64,000 bases of DNA, from positions 1 through 64,000 of the forward strand of contig JAJFFY010000044.1 in the NCBI GenBank assembly GCA_021776415.1. The letters run 5' to 3'. Position numbers and translations under genes: made by a program. A model generated the notes under the pieces. The model was not told the DNA's origin. It did not search any database and saw nothing but the letters and a program-made list of their open reading frames with translations. Source of the stretch: Hyphococcus sp. GTDB lineage: Bacteria; Pseudomonadota; Alphaproteobacteria; Caulobacterales; Parvularculaceae. Positions within the stretch are counted from its first letter, which is position 1; each line of letters begins with the position of its first letter. This document shows positions 2-8,559 of this stretch, one piece after another.

Positions 2-2668
2 GCCAATTACGTGCCCGGCTGGGACTGTCATGGCCTACCGATCGAATGGAAGGTTGAAGAAGAGTTCCGCGCCAAGGGGCGCGCCAAACGCGACGTGCCG
101 GCGGTGGAGTTTCGCGCCCGCTGCCGCGAATACGCCAGCGGCTGGCTCGACATCCAGCGCGACGAATTCCGCCGCCTCGGCGGCGAGGGCGACTGGGATC
201 ATCCGTATACGACGATGGCCTTTTCGTCCGAAGCGGTGATCGCGACCGAGCTGTTAAAGTTCGTGGAGAGCGATCTCCTCTATCGCGGCTCCAAACCGGT
301 GATGTGGAGCCCGGTGGAGCAAACCGCGCTCGCCGAAGCCGAGATCGAATATCACGACCACCAGTCCACGACGGTTTGGGTGAAATTTCCTGTAAGCCCT
401 AAGCAAGTATACGGTCGCAAGACGCCGCCGTATCTTAACAATGTCTCTGTGGTCATCTGGACGACAACGCCCTGGACCATTCCCGGCAACCGGGCGATCA
501 GCTTTAGTGAAAACATTGAATACCGAGTCTTCGAAGTGGAAGAACTTGAAGAGACTGACTTTGAACCATGGGCCCGGCCCGGCGAGAAGTTTTTGATAGC
601 CGAGTCACTAGCTGATGAAGTGAAATCAGCGGCTAAGATTAAGAGCTGGAAGAAGCTTTTACGTATACAGCCAAGAGACATAGTTTGTGATCATCCATTG
701 AAAGGGTTTCACGGAGGTTATGAATTTCCTGTGCCAATGCTTGACGGAGATCACGTCACAGACGAAGCGGGTACCGGCTTTGTTCATACAGCTCCGGGGC
801 ATGGGCAAGAAGACTACGTCGCTTGGATTCGTCATCTGAAGCCACAAAATGAAATTCCGCATACGGTTGATGAGTTCGGCGCCTTCACCGATGAAGCGCA
901 CGGCTTTGGCCCTTCAGATCAGGAAAAACCGCTACAAGTCATCGTCACTGACGGCAAGAAAAAAGGTAAAGAAGGCGGCGCCAATAAAGCCGTCATCGAT
1001 CAATTGATCGCTCATAATAAATTGCTCGCCCGTGGGCGGCTCACCCACTCCTATCCACATTCATGGCGCTCCAAAGCGCCGGTGATTTTCCGCAACACGC
1101 CGCAATGGTTCATCGCCCTCGACAAGAAGATGGCCGACGGCGAGACTTTGCGCGCCAAGGCGCTGAAAGCCATCGACGAGACTGGCTTCACGCCAGCGCA
1201 AGGGCGTAACCGCATCCGCACCATGGTTGAGGGCCGCCCGGACTGGCTGGTCTCGCGCCAGCGCGCCTGGGGCGTGCCAATCACGATCTACGTTCACAAA
1301 GAAACCGGCAAAATTTTGAACGATCCCGCCGTCAATGAGCGCATTATCACCGCCATAAAAGAGCGCGGCGCTTACGCTTGGTTCGATAAGAACTGGCACC
1401 CTCACCTACCTACGGAACATTACTTCCTTGGTACAGATCGCGATCCCGCAGACTACGAAAAAATCGAAGACATTCTCGATGTCTGGTTCGATTCCGGCTG
1501 CACCCACGCCTTCGTGCTGGAGAACCGCGACGATTTAGTCTGGCCGGCGGATGTTTATTGCGAGGGCTCGGACCAGCATCGCGGCTGGTTCCAGTCGTCG
1601 CTATTGGAGGCCTGTGGCACGCGCGGCCGTGCGCCCTACAAGCACGTCATCACCAACGGCTTTGTTGGCGACGCCGAGGGCCGCAAAATGTCGAAGTCGC
1701 TTGGCAATGTGACGGCGCCGGAAGAGGTGATCAAACAATATGGCGCGGAAATCATCCGCATCTGGGTCGCAAGTTCCGACTACACCGATGATACGCGGAT
1801 CTCGAAGGAGATCATCGGCTCGGCGGTCGACGCCTATCGCAAGCTACGCAACACGCTGCGCTATCTGCTCGGCGCGGTCGCCGGGTTCAACGATGATGAA
1901 CGGGTCGAGCCTAAAAAAATGCCTGAGCTTGAGCGCTATATTCTGCATCGGCTGGCAGTCCTCGACGCGGAAGTGCGCGAGGCTTATGAGCGCTATGACT
2001 TCAAAGCCGTGTGGCGCAAATGCCTTGATTTTGCCTCGCTCGATCTGTCGGCGTTCTATCTCGATATCCGCAAAGACAGCCTTTATTGCGACCAGCTTGA
2101 TGACATCCGTCGTCGCGCCGCGCGCACAGTGATGGATCTGGTGTTCGACCGGCTAATCGCCTGGCTGGCGCCAATTTGCGTCTTTACGTCTGAAGAGGCG
2201 TGGCTGGAGCGCTACCCGTCAGAGGACGGATCGATCCATCTGACGCAGTTTCCGCAAACGCCTGCGACATGGCGTGACGACGCGCTGGCTTCGAAATGGA
2301 AAAAAGTTCGCGAAGTTCGCCGGGTTGTCACTGGCGCCCTGGAAGTCGAGCGTCGCGACAAGCGCATTGGCGCCAGTCTTGAGGCCGCACCGACGGTATA
2401 TATCGGCGAGCCGGACTTGCTTCGCGCCTATGACGGGCTCGACCCGGCGGAATTGTTCATTACCTCGGGCGCAGTTCTGGTCGAAGGCGCGGGTTCGGCC
2501 GCCGCCTTCCGGCTTGAGGGTGAGACGAGCGATGTCGCTGTTGCGCCGGGCGCCGCTGAGGGTGAAAAATGCCGCCGCTGCTGGCGCATCCTGCCGGAGG
2601 TTGGCGGCAATGAAGTCGATTTGTGCGGGCGTTGTGGTGATGCGGTGGACGCCCATGACAAGGGCTGA
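2..2668 (+). CDS. ileS: Isoleucine--tRNA ligase, 5'-truncated by window start
   Basis: Class I aminoacyl-tRNA synthetase that charges tRNA-Ile in the cytoplasm. The frame is open from the first bases (reading ANYVPGWDCHGLPIEW), so the true start and the HIGH signature lie upstream, probably less than 100 residues away. The PGWDCHGLPIE block, the CP1 editing domain (TTTPWTIPGN ... DEAGTGFVHTAPGHG), the catalytic loop GRKMSKSLGN and a C-terminal zinc knuckle (CRRCWRI ... CGRC) are all present. The coding sequence of the editing domain, about 370-870, is visibly AT-richer than both flanks (see findings). It is followed after 3 bases by lspA, the usual neighbour. Confidence 0.97.
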   Translation, partial: ANYVPGWDCHGLPIEWKVEEEFRAKGRAKRDVPAVEFRARCREYASGWLDIQRDEFRRLGGEGDWDHPYTTMAFSSEAVIATELLKFVESDLLYRGSKPVMWSPVEQTALAEAEIEYHDHQSTTVWVKFPVSPKQVYGRKTPPYLNNVSVVIWTTTPWTIPGNRAISFSENIEYRVFEVEELEETDFEPWARPGEKFLIAESLADEVKSAAKIKSWKKLLRIQPRDIVCDHPLKGFHGGYEFPVPMLDGDHVTDEAGTGFVHTAPGHGQEDYVAWIRHLKPQNEIPHTVDEFGAFTDEAHGFGPSDQEKPLQVIVTDGKKKGKEGGANKAVIDQLIAHNKLLARGRLTHSYPHSWRSKAPVIFRNTPQWFIALDKKMADGETLRAKALKAIDETGFTPAQGRNRIRTMVEGRPDWLVSRQRAWGVPITIYVHKETGKILNDPAVNERIITAIKERGAYAWFDKNWHPHLPTEHYFLGTDRDPADYEKIEDILDVWFDSGCTHAFVLENRDDLVWPADVYCEGSDQHRGWFQSSLLEACGTRGRAPYKHVITNGFVGDAEGRKMSKSLGNVTAPEEVIKQYGAEIIRIWVASSDYTDDTRISKEIIGSAVDAYRKLRNTLRYLLGAVAGFNDDERVEPKKMPELERYILHRLAVLDAEVREAYERYDFKAVWRKCLDFASLDLSAFYLDIRKDSLYCDQLDDIRRRAARTVMDLVFDRLIAWLAPICVFTSEEAWLERYPSEDGSIHLTQFPQTPATWRDDALASKWKKVREVRRVVTGALEVERRDKRIGASLEAAPTVYIGEPDLLRAYDGLDPAELFITSGAVLVEGAGSAAAFRLEGETSDVAVAPGAAEGEKCRRCWRILPEVGGNEVDLCGRCGDAVDAHDKG

Positions 2669-2671
2669 GCG

Positions 2672-3220
2672 ATGAGCGCAGTGATGAAAACAAATGTGAT
2701 GGCGCGCGCGCGCGACTGGTGGGGCGAGGCGCGCGCCAACCCCTATTTTCGCTATGGCCTCGTCGCCGCTTTTGTTGTCGCGCTGCTCGATCAGCTTTCC
2801 AAATATTGGGTCGTCAACGTGCTTGGGCTACCTGAGCTTGGCAAAATCGAAATCTCGGGCATTTTCGATCTCAGCTATGTGCAAAATACGGGCGCGAGCT
2901 TCGGCCTGCTGTCCGGGGGGCTCGTCTCACGGGTCATTTTATCGTTGGTCTCAACCGGCGTCGCCATTGGCTTGATGGTCTGGCTCGGGAGGCTCAGGCG
3001 GCAGGCGGCAGTCGCCGGCGTCGTCGCAATTATTGGCGGCGCGCTCGGCAATCTTTATGACCGGGTGGCCTATGGTTATGTGGTCGATTTTCTTGATTTT
3101 TCGGGACTGATGTTTCCCTGGGTGTTCAATATCGCCGATATGGCGATCAACATTGGCATTGCGCTGCTTGTCCTCGATATCTGGCTAACCCGCGATGAGG
3201 GTGGGGGCGTTAAAAAATAG
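2672..3220 (+). CDS. lspA: Signal peptidase II (prolipoprotein)
   Basis: Inner-membrane aspartyl protease that removes signal peptides from lipidated prolipoproteins. The protein is 182 residues with four hydrophobic segments. The two conserved blocks carrying the catalytic aspartates are visible: NLYDRVAYGYVVDFLDF and FNIADMAINIG. An N-terminal stretch of about 25 residues precedes the first membrane helix. The start lies 3 bases after the ileS stop, so the two are probably cotranscribed; ileS-lspA is a common pair. A lipoprotein gene follows, which is functionally consistent. Confidence 0.96.
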   Translation: MSAVMKTNVMARARDWWGEARANPYFRYGLVAAFVVALLDQLSKYWVVNVLGLPELGKIEISGIFDLSYVQNTGASFGLLSGGLVSRVILSLVSTGVAIGLMVWLGRLRRQAAVAGVVAIIGGALGNLYDRVAYGYVVDFLDFSGLMFPWVFNIADMAINIGIALLVLDIWLTRDEGGGVKK

Positions 3221-3315
3221 CGCTTTATGGCTTTGCGCCCAGGCAAAGAGGCCGATATAGTGTCGGCAAAACCGGATTTGGGCGGGGCGCTCGAACGGTG
3301 TGGAGTGAAAGACCG

Positions 3316-3876
3316 ATGATTGAAAAGACTTCCCTGCGCGCGGCGCTTATCGTCGCCGGCATGGCGTTGATGACTGGCGGCTGCGGTATTGGTAAAGCCC
3401 TTGGCGGCGGCAAACAGGCGCCGGATGAATTTGCAGTGGCGACCAAGGCGCCGCTGGTGGTGCCGCCGGATTATGCTCTGCGCCCGCCGCGTCCGGGCGA
3501 GTCGCGTCCACAGGAGCTGTCACCATCCGAACGCGCGCAACAGGTGTTGCTCGGGGATCGGTCCGCCGCGCCGCCGACGCTTGGCGAGCAGGCCTTGCTG
3601 CACAAAGCCGGCGCCTTTACCGCTGACCCCAATATCCGCAATCTGTTGAATGCGGAAAATGGCGGGCGCGGCGACAAAGACCGCAGTATCGCCAATCAGC
3701 TTATTTTCTGGAAATTCCTCAATGGCGATGTCGATGACACGGACGCGCCGCTGCGGGTTGATAATGCCGAGGAATGGCTCGCGGAACGTGAAGAACGCAT
3801 TGTGAATGTGATCGGCGAGGACGGCGAAGTTGAAATCAAGAAATCCAAAACGCTGAACCTGCCGGGGGTTTTTTAA
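3316..3876 (+). CDS. DUF3035-type lipoprotein
   Basis: Predicted outer-envelope lipoprotein of unknown function. The ATG at 3316 follows a GGAG at 3302-3305 and gives a 186-residue protein with a short signal peptide ending in the lipobox MTGGC (lipidated Cys23). An in-frame GTG at 3298 lacks this spacing. The mature part has the PLVVPPDYALRPPRPGE motif characteristic of alphaproteobacterial DUF3035 proteins, then a low-complexity acidic C-terminus. It lies downstream of lspA, whose product would process it. The function is not known. Confidence 0.85.
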   Translation: MIEKTSLRAALIVAGMALMTGGCGIGKALGGGKQAPDEFAVATKAPLVVPPDYALRPPRPGESRPQELSPSERAQQVLLGDRSAAPPTLGEQALLHKAGAFTADPNIRNLLNAENGGRGDKDRSIANQLIFWKFLNGDVDDTDAPLRVDNAEEWLAEREERIVNVIGEDGEVEIKKSKTLNLPGVF

Positions 3877-3938
3877 AGCCCAGGTTTAATGTTCGTTTTT
3901 CGGGTTTCTTGCGACCGTTGTCGGCGGCATAATCAGTT

Positions 3939-5861
3939 ATGGCTCATCGCGCAGACCCATCTTCCTCAAATCCGGCCCCCTCAGGCCCGGCTTCGGACAA
4001 AGGCGCCGGCGTGAGTTTGATCCACCGCCTGCCGCCGGGCGCCGTCAACCGCATTGCCGCGGGCGAGGTGGTTGAGCGGCCCGCTTCCGCTGTCAAAGAG
4101 CTGGTTGAAAACGCGATTGATGCGGGCGCTTTGCGCATCGATGTTGAGATCGACCATGGCGGCAAGACGCGCCTCGTTGTTACCGACGATGGTTGCGGCA
4201 TGAGCGCGGAGGATTTGGCGTTAGCGGTCGAGCGCCATGCGACCTCGAAGCTGACGCCAGGCGCTGGCGGCGATTATGATCTTATGAACATCGCGACGAT
4301 GGGGTTTCGCGGCGAGGCGCTGCCGTCAATCGGCGCTGTGGCGCGGCTGTCGCTTACCTCGCGGGAGAAATCGGGCCCTGACGCCGCCGCCGATGCATGG
4401 GAGCTTCGTGTTGAGGGCGGCGATGTTTCCGGCCCGCGCCCGGCTGGGTTTGGCGGCCATGGCGCCCGGGTTGAGGTGCGCGATTTATTCTACGCAACGC
4501 CAGCGCGGCTTAAGTTTTTGAAATCGGATCAAGCTGAAGCAACGGCAATTGGCGATGTCTTGCGCCGCCTTGCCATGGCGCGCGAGGAGATTGCGTTCAC
4601 GCTCACGTCGGGCGGGCGGCGTTCGCTAAACCTCGCGGCGCAGACCAAAGGCGAGGCCGGACGGTTGCGCCGGCTTTCCGCGATCATGGGTAAGGATTTT
4701 TCCCAAAACGCACTTGCGATTGACGCGACGCGTGACGGCGTTCGCGTTACCGGGTTTGCCGGGCTGCCGACCTATAATCGCGGCCTGCCGGACAAACAAT
4801 ATTTGTTCGTAAACGGACGGCCGGTGCGCGACAAATTGATCATTGGCGCCGTGCGCGGCGCCTATGCGGACTTTCTGGCGCGCGGGCGCCACCCGGCAGT
4901 GGCGTTGTTCCTCGAAATTCCACTAGCGCTGGTCGATATCAATGTTCATCCGGCGAAAACTGAAGTGCGCTTTCGTGACGCCGGCAGCGTGCGCGGGCTG
5001 CTTATCGGGGCTCTGCGTCACGCGCTGGCGGAGGCCGGACACCGCGCCTCGACAACGACCAGCGCCTATGCGCTCGGCAAGGTCAGCCTCGGCGGGACAG
5101 GGCCCCTCCAGGGCGACTACCGGCCGCAAACGGCGAACCCTTACGCCCGTAATATCTATGCGTCAGACGGGTCCGCGCCGGAAGGCGGCCTTGCCGAGCG
5201 CCAATCAGGTTTTGATAATATCGGCGCGCCGAGCGCTCGAACCGAGCCACTGCAAGGCGATGCAGCGGTTGTTCCAAACGATCACCCTTTGGGTGCGGCG
5301 CGCGCGCAACTGCACGAGACCTATATCGTTTCGCAAACTGCGGACGGCCTGATCATCGTTGATCAGCATGCGGCGCATGAGCGCCTGGTCTATGAATGTA
5401 TGAAGGCCGCGCTGGCGGAAGGCGGCGTCGCCCGGCAGGGATTGCTGATCCCCGAAATTGTCGAAATGGAGGCGAGCGAGATTGACCGTCTGGCGCCGCG
5501 GTTTGAAGAGTTCGCCGCGCTCGGCCTGGTCATGGAGCGCTTCGGCGAGGATGCGGTGATGGTGCGCGAGACCCCGGCGATGCTGGGCGAGGTTGATATT
5601 AAAGGGCTGGTCCGCGCGCTCGGCGATGATCTCGCGGAGTTTGGCGCCGGCCTGGCCCTGAAGGAGCGCCTTGAAGAAGTGTGTTCGTCAATGGCGTGTC
5701 ATGGTTCGGTGCGTGCCGGCCGACGGCTCAATGGCGATGAGATGAATGCGCTGTTGCGCGAGATGGAAGCGACGCCACATTCTGGCCAGTGCAATCATGG
5801 CCGTCCAACCTATGTCGAGCTAAAACTCGCCGACATTGAGCGATTGTTCGGGCGACGATAA
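3939..5861 (+). CDS. mutL: DNA mismatch repair protein MutL
   Basis: GHKL ATPase that couples MutS mismatch recognition to downstream repair. The 640-residue protein has the N-terminal ATPase motifs ([27 protein letters not shown], written here only as landmark residues 34-59; [19 protein letters not shown]), a VNGRPVRD transducer motif, a linker, and a C-terminal dimerisation domain with DQHAAHER and [11 protein letters not shown]. The ATG at 3939 adds 24 residues before the conserved core; GTG at 4011 (VSLIHRLPP) is an equally possible start and neither has a strong ribosome site. The last 31 bases are duplicated at 6450-6480. Confidence 0.96.
5831..5861 (+). repeat. Direct repeat copy 1: 3' end of mutL
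   Basis: These 31 bases are the last codons of mutL (DIERLFGRR and TAA). They match 6450-6480 at 29 of 31 positions; the first 24 bases are identical and both differences are synonymous (CGA/CGG; TAA/TGA). The two copies flank the SMI1/KNR4 gene. Confidence 0.9.
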
Positions 5862-6416
5862 ATGCGCAACCTGGTTAAAGAGTTGTTGGAATTGAAACCT
5901 CACGGAGAATTAATCCCTGACACGGGTTTTTCCAAAGTGGTCTACCCGCCAATTAGCAATGATGAGCTTGTTAGCGCTGAAAAATTCTTGGGGTTTCCAT
6001 TAACACCATCGCTTCGGCAAATTTATCTTGAAGTTGCGAATGGTGGATTCGGCCCGGCTTATGGATTGCTTGGGTTGACTGGAGGAATGACTAATGAGGA
6101 CGGCAATGATGCCATTATGCAATATAAAGATTATCGTCAATGTGATCCAGCGGACCCGCATTGGCGGTGGCCTGAGGGGTTGTTGCCCGTAGGGCATTTG
6201 GGTTGTGCCATGTATTTATGTGTTGATTGCACAAAACGGGATGGTCCTGTTATTTGGTTTGAACCAGCAGCTCACGAAGACGGAAAGCCTTGGCAGGATT
6301 CATTTTTCCCTTTTGTGGAGTCTACAGAAGAATGGCTCTTTGCTTGGATTGATGGAAATGACTTGTTTAAAAAGGTTTCGGCAGAGGTATATCGCGTGTT
6401 GAAAAATGACGAGTGA
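5862..6416 (+). CDS. SMI1/KNR4 family protein (orphan immunity-like)
   Basis: The 184-residue protein carries the SMI1/KNR4 (SUKH-type) fold signature: ISNDELVSAEKFLGFPLTPS, then LRQIYLEVANGGFGP and YGLLGL, and a C-terminal WLFAWIDG block. Family members are often immunity proteins against contact-dependent or polymorphic toxins, and many occur as orphans. No toxin gene is adjacent. The ATG directly abuts the mutL TAA. Two sampled 60-base lines count 43% and 47% G+C, against 63% for a nearby mutL line. With the mutL-tail repeat on each side this looks like an acquired single-gene insert. The immunity role is inference. Confidence 0.85.
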   Translation: MRNLVKELLELKPHGELIPDTGFSKVVYPPISNDELVSAEKFLGFPLTPSLRQIYLEVANGGFGPAYGLLGLTGGMTNEDGNDAIMQYKDYRQCDPADPHWRWPEGLLPVGHLGCAMYLCVDCTKRDGPVIWFEPAAHEDGKPWQDSFFPFVESTEEWLFAWIDGNDLFKKVSAEVYRVLKNDE

Positions 6417-6449
6417 CGGATCAATGCGTGCGGATCGTGGCCTTACCGT

Positions 6450-6480
6450 CGACATTGAGCGATTGTTCGGGCGGCGATGA
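6450..6480 (+). repeat. Direct repeat copy 2: duplicated mutL tail
   Basis: Second copy of the mutL 3' end, still encoding DIERLFGRR and TGA but cut off from any mutL body. Its TGA overlaps the ATG of the next gene as ATGA, which is probably the ancestral mutL/downstream-gene junction before the SMI1/KNR4 gene was inserted. Confidence 0.9.
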
Positions 6481-6866
6481 TAGACAGTATTGCCCAATGG
6501 CTGACCTTGGCGTTCGGCGTCTGGTTGATTGCTGTAAGTTTTTTATGATTTTGAACCCGCAAAAGGCTCTTGGCTATCTTGGTAAAATGGCGAGCACGAA
6601 CCTTATCAACTATTCGGAAATCACCTTGCGCCTGATCGCCGGCGTAGCGCTCTGGCGCTATTCCGAATTCTCAAAGGCGCCGGAATTATTGCATGTGATC
6701 GGGCTTTTCCTCGCCTTCACGGCGATAGTCCTCTTCCTGGTTCCAAGGAAATGGCATGCCGCTTATGCTGTCTGGTGGTCGAGGAAACTTAGCCCGGCGA
6801 TGGTGCGGCTCTCCGCGCCGTTTTCGTTAGTGGCGGGCGGGGCTTCTGGTTTACGCCGTTATTTAG
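6477..6866 (+). pseudogene. Small membrane protein gene with two compensating frameshifts
   Basis: Reading starts at ATG 6477 (MIDSIAQWLTLAFGVWLIAVS). It breaks in a run of six T at 6539-6544, continues in the next frame (MILNPQKALGYLGKMAST ... VPRKWHAAYAVWWS ... SLVAGG), then returns to the original frame across four G at 6839-6842 to finish LLVYAVI and TAG at 6864-6866. Adding one T and removing one G would give a single ORF of about 130 residues with several hydrophobic segments. The two breaks are in homopolymers, so they may be sequencing errors or real inactivating mutations. No function is recognised. Its end overlaps the convergent DUF3291 gene by 8 bases. Confidence 0.7.
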
Positions 6867-7308
6867 GTGGATCGAAACGATCGGCGAATGTAAACGCATC
6901 CGGTATCGGGCCGTTCCGCTCCAGCAATTCAAGTTTCGTTTTCGCATTTTCAACTGTCGGCGTGTCGCCCGCCTTGATCCACCACAAGGCGGCATGCGGG
7001 CCGTCGAGCGGGGCAAAAAACTCCGCGCGCCGCTCAAAGATTTTCCGATGAACCGTGTCGAAGGCGAAGGCTTTGAGTGCTTCAATCGATTCCCACACGC
7101 TCATATTGATGATCAGCAACGGGTCGTTAAAGGCGTTTATGCGTGTAGCGTCGCCGATGTCGTCCTGAAGACGCCAAACAAAGCCGGCTGAACGATCGGC
7201 AATAGCGTTGATCCGGTTGAGATTATCGAAGAAAAATGCGTTGCCCGGATCGCCTTCGGGCGCTTTCAGGCGGGCGATGTTGATCTGCGCGAGGTGATGC
7301 TCTGTCAT
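6859..7308 (-). CDS. DUF3291 domain protein
   Basis: The 149-residue protein matches the DUF3291 pattern: an opening HHLAQINIARLKAP, then NRINAIADRSAGFVWRLQ, NDPLLIINMSVWESIEALKAF and ALWWIKAGDTPT. This family has a dimeric alpha/beta-barrel, monooxygenase-like fold, and no reaction is firmly established. It is convergent with the frameshifted membrane gene and divergent from the small membrane protein at 7378. The ATG at 7308 is the natural start because the conserved N-terminus begins a few residues later. Confidence 0.85.
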   Translation of the reverse strand: MTEHHLAQINIARLKAPEGDPGNAFFFDNLNRINAIADRSAGFVWRLQDDIGDATRINAFNDPLLIINMSVWESIEALKAFAFDTVHRKIFERRAEFFAPLDGPHAALWWIKAGDTPTVENAKTKLELLERNGPIPDAFTFADRFDPPK

Positions 7309-7377
7309 AACGAACCGGCCTTGTTGCGAGACTTTGCACTTAGCTTATACTTGCCGAGAATCAAGGGTTGGTGCGGG

Positions 7378-7575
7378 ATGAAAAGATTTCTATGGGCGGC
7401 CGGCCTTTTGTTGTTAAACTTGATCTTGTCCCTCGGGTCGGCTTTGGCTGGTTTCTATTTCATGATCCAATATTGGGATACCGACAAGGAATTTTATCTC
7501 GTGTTGGTTGGGTTCATGGGGGCGATATTTTTAGCTGCTAGAGGATACTTTTTTATGAGCGGGCGGAACAAGTAG
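7378..7575 (+). CDS. Small two-helix membrane protein
   Basis: This 65-residue protein has a positively charged N-terminus (MKRF), one hydrophobic segment at residues 5-28 and a second at about 41-58, ending SGRNK. It is predicted to be an inner-membrane hairpin protein. I do not recognise a family. The ATG at 7378 is chosen because an upstream in-frame start would run through the leader of the divergent DUF3291 gene. It sits in the AT-richer patch between mutL and the nitroreductase gene. Confidence 0.55.
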   Translation: MKRFLWAAGLLLLNLILSLGSALAGFYFMIQYWDTDKEFYLVLVGFMGAIFLAARGYFFMSGRNK

Positions 7576-7615
7576 GCGCTTTGCGCCGTAGCAACTGTTT
7601 CGCTTAACCTGTCTG

Positions 7616-7876
7616 TTGTCCTTACCGAAAATTAGATTCTGGCATATTCATGGTGCAATTTTTGACGGCGATTTGAGCGGTGAGGTGTTCCGCATAATGT
7701 CGTCTCATGTGGACAAGGACGGCAACGCATCTGAGAGTGAAAGTTTTTTATATCGCGAGGTTGACGAGGCAATGCGTTCATCCGGTAACATCTTGCTCTT
7801 TGATGAGGCAGATGCACTATTTAGCAAGCGCACCGATGTCAAAGACGCTCATGATCACTACGAGGCTAACGATTAA
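7616..7876 (+). pseudogene. AAA+ ATPase remnant (Walker B region only)
   Basis: The last third of this 86-residue frame reads YREVDEAMRSSGNILLFDEADALF followed by SKRTDVKDAHDHY. That is the Walker B box and following loop of AAA+ ATPases of the kind that read DEADALFGKR..VKD.HDRY. There is no Walker A loop upstream, and the frame stops at TAA before sensor 1 or the arginine finger, so it cannot be a working ATPase. The only in-frame upstream start is TTG at 7616, with a weak leader. The stop overlaps the ATG of the nitroreductase gene (TAATG). It is most likely a gene relic. Confidence 0.6.
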
Positions 7877-8559
7877 TGACTACTAAAAAATTCACGCTGC
7901 TTTCCGACCTCGGCGATTATACCGACCGCGACGGCGATGATATGGCGCGGCGCGCGGCGGCGTTTTTTGATGAGATCAAACGTCGCCATACGGTGCGGGA
8001 GTTTGCCGCCGACCCGGTCCCGCGTGAGATTATCGAGCATTGCATCTCCGCCGCCGGCCGCGCGCCCTCCGGCGCCAATCATCAGCCGTGGCATTTTTGT
8101 CTGGTCGGCGACGCGGCGATGAAATCGAAAATCCGCACTGCCGCTGAGGAAGAAGAGCGCGCATTTTATGAAGGCCGCGCCGGCGAGGAATGGCTCGATG
8201 CGCTGGACCCTTTGGGCACCGACGCCGACAAGCCGTTTTTGGAAATCGCGCCATGGTTGATTGCGGTGTTCGCCCAGCGCCGTGGCGGCGAGGAAGCCGG
8301 CATGGACAAGAAGAATTATTACATCAATGAAAGCGCCGGCATCGCCTGTGGGTTTTTGCTGGCGGCGCTTCATCATGCTGGGCTGGCGACGCTAACCCAC
8401 ACGCCCAAGCCCATGAACTTCCTTAATGACGCGCTCAGCCGTCCGGCTACGGAAAAACCCTATTTGCTGATCGTCACCGGCAAGCCCGCCGCCGACGCCA
8501 TGATTTCACATCATGCGCTGATCAAAAAACCGCTGAAAGATATCCTCACGGTATATTAA
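7876..8559 (+). CDS. Nitroreductase family flavoprotein
   Basis: FMN-dependent oxidoreductase of 227 residues. The FMN-binding start of the fold is clear: [19 protein letters not shown], then [17 protein letters not shown] later [21 protein letters not shown] block and a [10 protein letters not shown] strand complete it. The N-terminal part resembles the iodotyrosine-deiodinase/BluB-like branch more than the NfsB branch, but the substrate cannot be told. The ATG overlaps the stop of the AAA+ remnant. A dispersed hairpin repeat follows immediately. Confidence 0.9.

Follow-up and report, generated by a model that had tools for sequence, protein, structure and literature searches.

How small defence and immunity genes enter new genomes without a mobility gene is, to our knowledge, poorly understood. 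Integrative elements are able to restore the 3′ end of a tRNA gene or a protein gene, and minimal mobile elements are variable genes that lack a recombinase and have a conserved gene on either side; duplication of a gene tail is not known to be part of their definition. For the T6SS orphan immunity arrays of Vibrio cholerae, homology-facilitated illegitimate recombination has been proposed, in which the 3′ end of an old effector gene is shifted back (PMC5361080). In Bacteroidales, according to a preprint (PMC12247911) that also treats the recombinase-associated acquired interbacterial defence (rAID), divergent members of the SUKH family are able to act protectively as orphan immunity proteins.

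Here we describe a single SUKH gene placed cleanly behind a housekeeping gene, where the traces left by its entry can still be read and sister species provide empty sites for comparison. In the window (the whole stretch of 64,000 nucleotides of DNA that was analysed), mutL (3939–5861, plus strand; MutL_C, 2.1e-46; DNA_mis_repair, 2.8e-36) is intact, ends in TAA and encodes a product 91–92% identical to those of G007, G011 and G016. Its stop codon is abutted, with no gap, by the ATG of a SUKH-1 (SMI1/KNR4) gene (5862–6416, plus strand) of 184 aa, whose protein scores 56 bits against PF09346 (E = 7.9e-15; curated cut-off, 25.4 bits) and thereby falls within SUKH-1; at E ≤ 0.01, it matched no NCBIfam family and no solved structure. 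As a sequence-only reading of this DNA had reported with correct coordinates, the gene has a copy of the final 31 bases of mutL on each side, namely the left one (5831–5861, plus strand), which is the copy now used by mutL, and the right one (6450–6480, plus strand). They are spaced 619 bp apart, agree at 29 of 31 bases and make up the sole same-strand ungapped repeat in the window with a score of at least 18 and a spacing of 300–3000 bp. The insert amounts to 585 bp, comprising the SUKH gene and 30 further bases between its stop codon and the right tail (6417–6446, no strand), which have no recognisable origin and no attC motif. The SUKH gene is the only ORF of at least 100 aa wholly within the insert, the ATG-started stretches in other frames reaching at most 65 residues, and neither the ORFs nor these stretches encode a recombinase or integrase. 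No transposase and, at 5700–6700, no inverted repeat of at least 16 bases was found, so that the locus does not qualify as a transposon or insertion sequence. An exact-consensus search for attC (RYYYAAC … GTTRRRY) was likewise negative for 5700–6700 of the window and for 2100–3300 of the corresponding stretch of G024 (L041). The differing composition of the insert noted in the sequence-only reading is real, with 45.4% G+C in the SUKH gene vs 63.2% in mutL and 56.5% in the whole window, and so is the preservation of the mutL reading frame after the insertion. The SUKH gene is most likely an orphan immunity gene, which would be expressed and would function in immunity.

Compared with integrative elements at gene 3′ ends, the locus has the direct repeat of the gene end, the restored frame and the cargo of low G+C content; however, the 585-bp insert carries no integrase, which an integrase-driven element would be expected to bring along. 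Like the Vibrio arrays, it has an immunity-type gene added behind a conserved stretch, with the 3′ end of the older gene displaced and no dedicated recombinase needed. There, however, anchoring is by the upstream portion of an effector–immunity module, whereas here the housekeeping gene mutL takes this place, the duplication is confined to its last 31 bases, and no toxin gene is present in the insert. One-sided recombination in the window would parallel the scheme put forward for the Vibrio arrays, which is itself a proposal. With rAID, the window shares a short orphan immunity gene, SUKH being among those of rAID, and a recombination-linked place. According to the preprint, rAID is further marked by arrays of genes, by motifs conserved between the genes and by a predicted tyrosine recombinase, whereas in the window one gene fills the space from mutL to the right tail and none of these is present; the combination of a tyrosine recombinase with an immunity gene array is therefore absent.

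The site without the gene is found in sister species. Among the 28 genomes of the genus searched, 27 gave a MutL match, and the mutL stop codon was visible at 25 loci including the window. In G007 and G016 (MutL 92 and 91% identical), the TGA that closes mutL shares bases with the start codon (ATG) of the same next gene, and BLAST of the window against both gave the blocks 5400–5859 and 6447–6872, which overlap by 32 bp at 3360–3391 on the G007 and G016 sequences. The same junction, less alike, occurs in G009 (81%; blocks 5400–5857 and 6451–6839), and G011, the other near sister, has different DNA behind mutL. Compared with the sister species, the SUKH gene has been inserted and its target duplicated. 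The right tail, in which the TGA and the start codon of the next gene overlap as ATGA and at which homology to G016 and G007 restarts (at 6447), holds the ancestral position and represents the original junction of mutL with the next gene. This had been proposed from the sequence alone, together with the expectation of relatives in which a single mutL tail is followed by the same next gene; G007, G016 and, less alike, G009 bear out both, and the contrary case, that all relatives carry the SUKH gene and both tails, does not hold. The two differences between the tails had further been described as synonymous. The agreement at 29 of 31 positions stands, but the homology to the empty sites ends at 5859 (CGAT), inside the stop codon; because the AA of TAA lies outside the matched block, these two bases may come from the insert, and the stop codon may have been made at the junction rather than being a synonymous copy.

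A second tail was sought as the best ungapped downstream match to each gene's own last 33 bases of mutL. The window scores 30/33, vs 17–21/33 at the 24 other genus loci and, in a second comparison, 16–22/33 at the 48 loci showing a mutL tail (of 56 in that comparison; the eight excluded were seven SUKH loci without mutL and L177, in which the tail was not found). In total, no second mutL tail was present in 53 of the 61 other family genomes, some of the stretches being as short as 365 bases; the eight genomes not covered either gave no match at 1e-50 (G015, G023, G037 and G061) or were cut or had no tail (G021, G034, G046 and G058). Other cargo flanked by mutL tails at this site, which the sequence-only reading had suggested looking for, did not turn up in those 53 genomes either.

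The SUKH protein of the window has matches in 3/62 genomes of the family (E ≤ 0.001) and in 9/398 genomes of the order, and a two-row profile matched 2/385 genomes of the class (the other match at 9.8e-4), its own genome being counted each time. Apart from the window's genome, G024 alone in the family has a close homologue (63% identity); there, the gene starts with GTG directly after the TAG of mutL and no second mutL tail follows within 6688 bases downstream; the third family match (G006) is weak (34%) and has an internal stop. A scan of the GTDB species genomes with two peptide patterns derived from the window and G024 proteins found 122 relatives, 80 of which were kept, and a scan with a single-protein pattern found none; both scans are pattern-based, and closer relatives may exist. 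The best of the 80 kept relatives were L057, which by length and position is the same contig as that of G024, then one from Phycisphaerae (L058, 58%) and one from Pseudoxanthomonas (L059, 54% by tblastn), none of the other 77 exceeding 46%. Viral carriers were not found by the pattern scan, and 22 plasmid records (21 of Streptomyces and one of Kitasatospora) contained relatives, all below 60% identity. No description of a SUKH gene downstream of mutL came up in our literature searches. In four genomes from a different family of the order (L043 3551–5044, L044, L045 and L046), a distant SUKH gene is situated between ybaB and recR, an arrangement verified by Pfam in one locus (L043), and no copy of the ybaB tail was found behind it (16–19/33).

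In the SUKH tree, the window and G024 are sisters (support 98/94; 60.7% identical in that alignment), and in the MutL tree, which is midpoint-rooted and has a weak deep split between the two groups (74/90), their species belong to different supported groups (100/98 and 98/96). At fourfold sites, the SUKH pair is alike at 6/43, below the 9.9 expected at saturation, and mutL of the same pair is alike at 133/276 vs 98.1 expected. Because these sites are saturated in the SUKH pair, the sequences speak against a recent exchange of the gene between the window and G024 lineages. Possible histories include two separate gains, one gain spread by mutL-anchored recombination via unsampled donors, or an old arrangement with many losses.

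The nearest relatives found outside the genus occupy other types of places. In the Pseudoxanthomonas locus (L059), five attC-like half-repeat pairs at 3304–5512 surround the SUKH gene, a sixth, weak member lies inside it, and one complete RYYYAAC–GTTRRRY motif lies directly before it. The integron integrase at 1295–1636 (minus strand) is apparently truncated, because its match (77 bits) spans only residues 9–84 of 315 and falls below the cut-off. This relative could thus be compared with an integron cassette in an attC array near a truncated integrase, whereas the window and G024 have no attC behind the SUKH gene. In the Phycisphaerae locus (L058), two copies of a stretch of ~240 bp, 80% alike, enclose the SUKH gene. 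The contig contains a third copy, which reaches into the 3′ end of a tRNA-Sec gene; Rfam confirmed this tRNA (RF01852, 66.6 bits; gathering threshold, 47). About the last 20 bases of the tRNA-Sec gene are within the shared ~240-bp part, so that the L058 SUKH gene has duplicated tRNA 3′ ends on both sides; in the L058 stretch, which stops short of the intact tRNA-Sec gene, no tRNA was detected by ARAGORN. A Phycisphaerae contig (L195 1–7782) shows three copies of the tRNA-Sec 3′ region in the same direction; of the two intervals that they delimit, one contains a SUKH gene and the other measures ~4.5 kb.

Flanking repeats as a general feature of SUKH genes were rejected: at a score of at least 14, they occur at 3/81 SUKH loci (window included) vs 19/850 control ORFs, which were mechanically chosen, in a test blind to diverged repeats such as attC. 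At a score of at least 24, they occur at 2/81 loci (the window and L058) vs 3/850 controls, or at 1/80 without the window. Within the group of close relatives, the window, L058 and L059 have flanking repeats and G024 has none; the grouping of all four has a support of 86/68. Because the G024 gene abuts mutL and the relatives are found in an integron and at tRNA-Sec 3′ ends, this SUKH lineage seems to be mobile in the form of single genes, for which mutL would be the recurrent site in the genus. The presence of one lineage at three types of place (mutL end, tRNA-Sec end and integron) makes its movement directly testable.

The empty site, the target duplication, the foreign composition and the second lineage member flush behind mutL in G024 together argue for a horizontal insertion. 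We regard it as real and clean, and as the acquisition of a probable orphan immunity gene at the end of mutL. Our preferred reading, held tentatively and at slightly less than even confidence, is that a foreign single-gene SUKH insert was horizontally acquired through one-sided homologous recombination anchored in mutL. Donor DNA with the end of mutL followed by the SUKH gene would have paired with the mutL tail of the recipient, in which 24 identical bases remain, and the other end of the donor would have been attached, in a step that needs no homology, immediately before the old tail, which the insert would thereby have displaced downstream. With the last two bases of the new stop codon and the fused ATG perhaps supplied by the insert, the MutL protein would be left unchanged; the SUKH gene could be translated by coupling to mutL, and the next gene would retain its ATGA signal. 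We infer a recombination pathway of this type; homology is present at one end (the mutL tail on the left) and absent at the other, where nothing was recognisable at 6417–6449 among the loci compared. A longer decayed mutL remnant in this gap was considered and rejected as weak, 15/2000 shuffles and 66/1511 control stretches having scored as high.

The last three 150-base segments of mutL are 84–92% identical to those of G007, G011 and G016, like most of the gene apart from a dip in the linker. No foreign or donor-like tract is visible in mutL at 150-base resolution, as would also be the case after recombination with a close donor; beyond the tail, the homologous step of the model therefore leaves no trace. 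Among the six relatives compared, the left and right tails show equal numbers of differences from G007 (4/4), G016 (2/2), G011 (4/4) and G024 (7/7), and the right tail is slightly closer to G014 (left 8, right 6) and G009 (left 5, right 4). On the basis of the tails, donor and recipient cannot be told apart. From the sequence alone, it had been proposed that the incoming segment brought its own mutL tail. The insertion is upheld, and a mutL-associated unit gains support because the sister SUKH gene in G024 also abuts the mutL stop codon; the ownership of the tail goes beyond what equidistant copies and a mutL gene without a foreign tract can carry. Because of these same two observations, it would fit as well that the recipient's own mutL tail was duplicated, with a foreign SUKH fragment inserted at a staggered break, or through a template switch during repair, and no mutL coming along. 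Both copies look native to the clade, and the single clean 32-bp overlap on the empty site also agrees with such a duplication, but it gives no account of why the sole close homologue in the family is likewise flush behind mutL, and we consider it somewhat unlikely.

Site-specific integration of a small circle, consisting of the SUKH gene and a mutL-like core, at the mutL 3′ end, either by a recombinase acting in trans or by a single crossover, is rather improbable. On the one hand, the restored gene end and the 31-bp direct repeat resemble what such elements generally show, one relative has copies of a tRNA-Sec 3′ end on both sides, and two members of the lineage occur at the same gene, mutL. 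On the other hand, the insert contains no recombinase, the window and G024 have no attC motif, G024 lacks a second tail, and an integron integrase over the cut-off was found in 0/28 genus genomes in a search that had no positive control, the matches being in pieces and the truncated Pseudoxanthomonas one also remaining under the cut-off. Insertion at a secondary integron site, suggested by the Pseudoxanthomonas cassette array and by the G024 junction GTTAGGT, was ruled against by the GTTAGGC at the mutL end of G008, which has no insert, and by the absence of attC. More speculatively still, the mutL 3′ end might be a docking site in the genus for a one-gene SUKH unit that is moved in trans, its own first bases restoring mutL, and that elsewhere uses tRNA-Sec ends and integrons.

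We think it very unlikely that mutL–SUKH is an old arrangement of the genus, vertically inherited and lost in most species. The sister relationship of the window and G024 SUKH genes, with their saturated synonymous sites, would agree with such an age, and a precise loss could happen between the repeats; however, it would take many losses, as estimated by visual inspection of the MutL tree, the right tail is in the same place as the tail of the empty species, and the G+C content of the SUKH gene is low. An assembly artefact is scarcely credible: the genome is a fragmented draft in 100 contigs and 85% complete, but this contig has 164,562 bases, the mutL–SUKH adjacency recurs in a different species, G024, and the duplication of the tail by the assembler, raised as an objection in the sequence-only reading, is made improbable by the two mismatches between the copies and by the shortness of the repeat.

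Behind the right tail, the next gene (6477–6872, plus strand, 6872 being the end of the matched block and not a stop codon) encodes a small membrane-like protein, as judged by eye. It is open in G007, G016 and G009, and in the window it runs out of frame after a T run at ~6539–6544, a break representing either a real loss or a sequencing error. Its homologue in G016 has a weak DUF2065 match (E = 0.0094, below the cut-off). A DUF3291 gene (6859–7308, minus strand) lies between the broken next gene and a nitroreductase gene, and the mutL-bearing stretch of G014 contains DNA similar to this region (77% over 213 bases). The stretch at 7707–7875 (plus strand) resembles the 3′ end of the gene preceding the nitroreductase gene in G011, the window being 76.7% identical to G011 over 7707–7900 with short matches to G005 and G010, and is possibly the remnant of a displaced gene. 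The nitroreductase gene itself (7876–8559, plus strand; PF00881, 5.1e-21) is the usual right border of a variable interval, and its 11-residue motif was found downstream of mutL, within the stretch examined, at 20 of the 24 other genus loci. As in minimal mobile elements, the interval between mutL and the nitroreductase gene (5862–7875 in the window) differs among members of the genus; by eye, it contains nothing, a small membrane-like gene, a secreted-protein gene or reversed genes.
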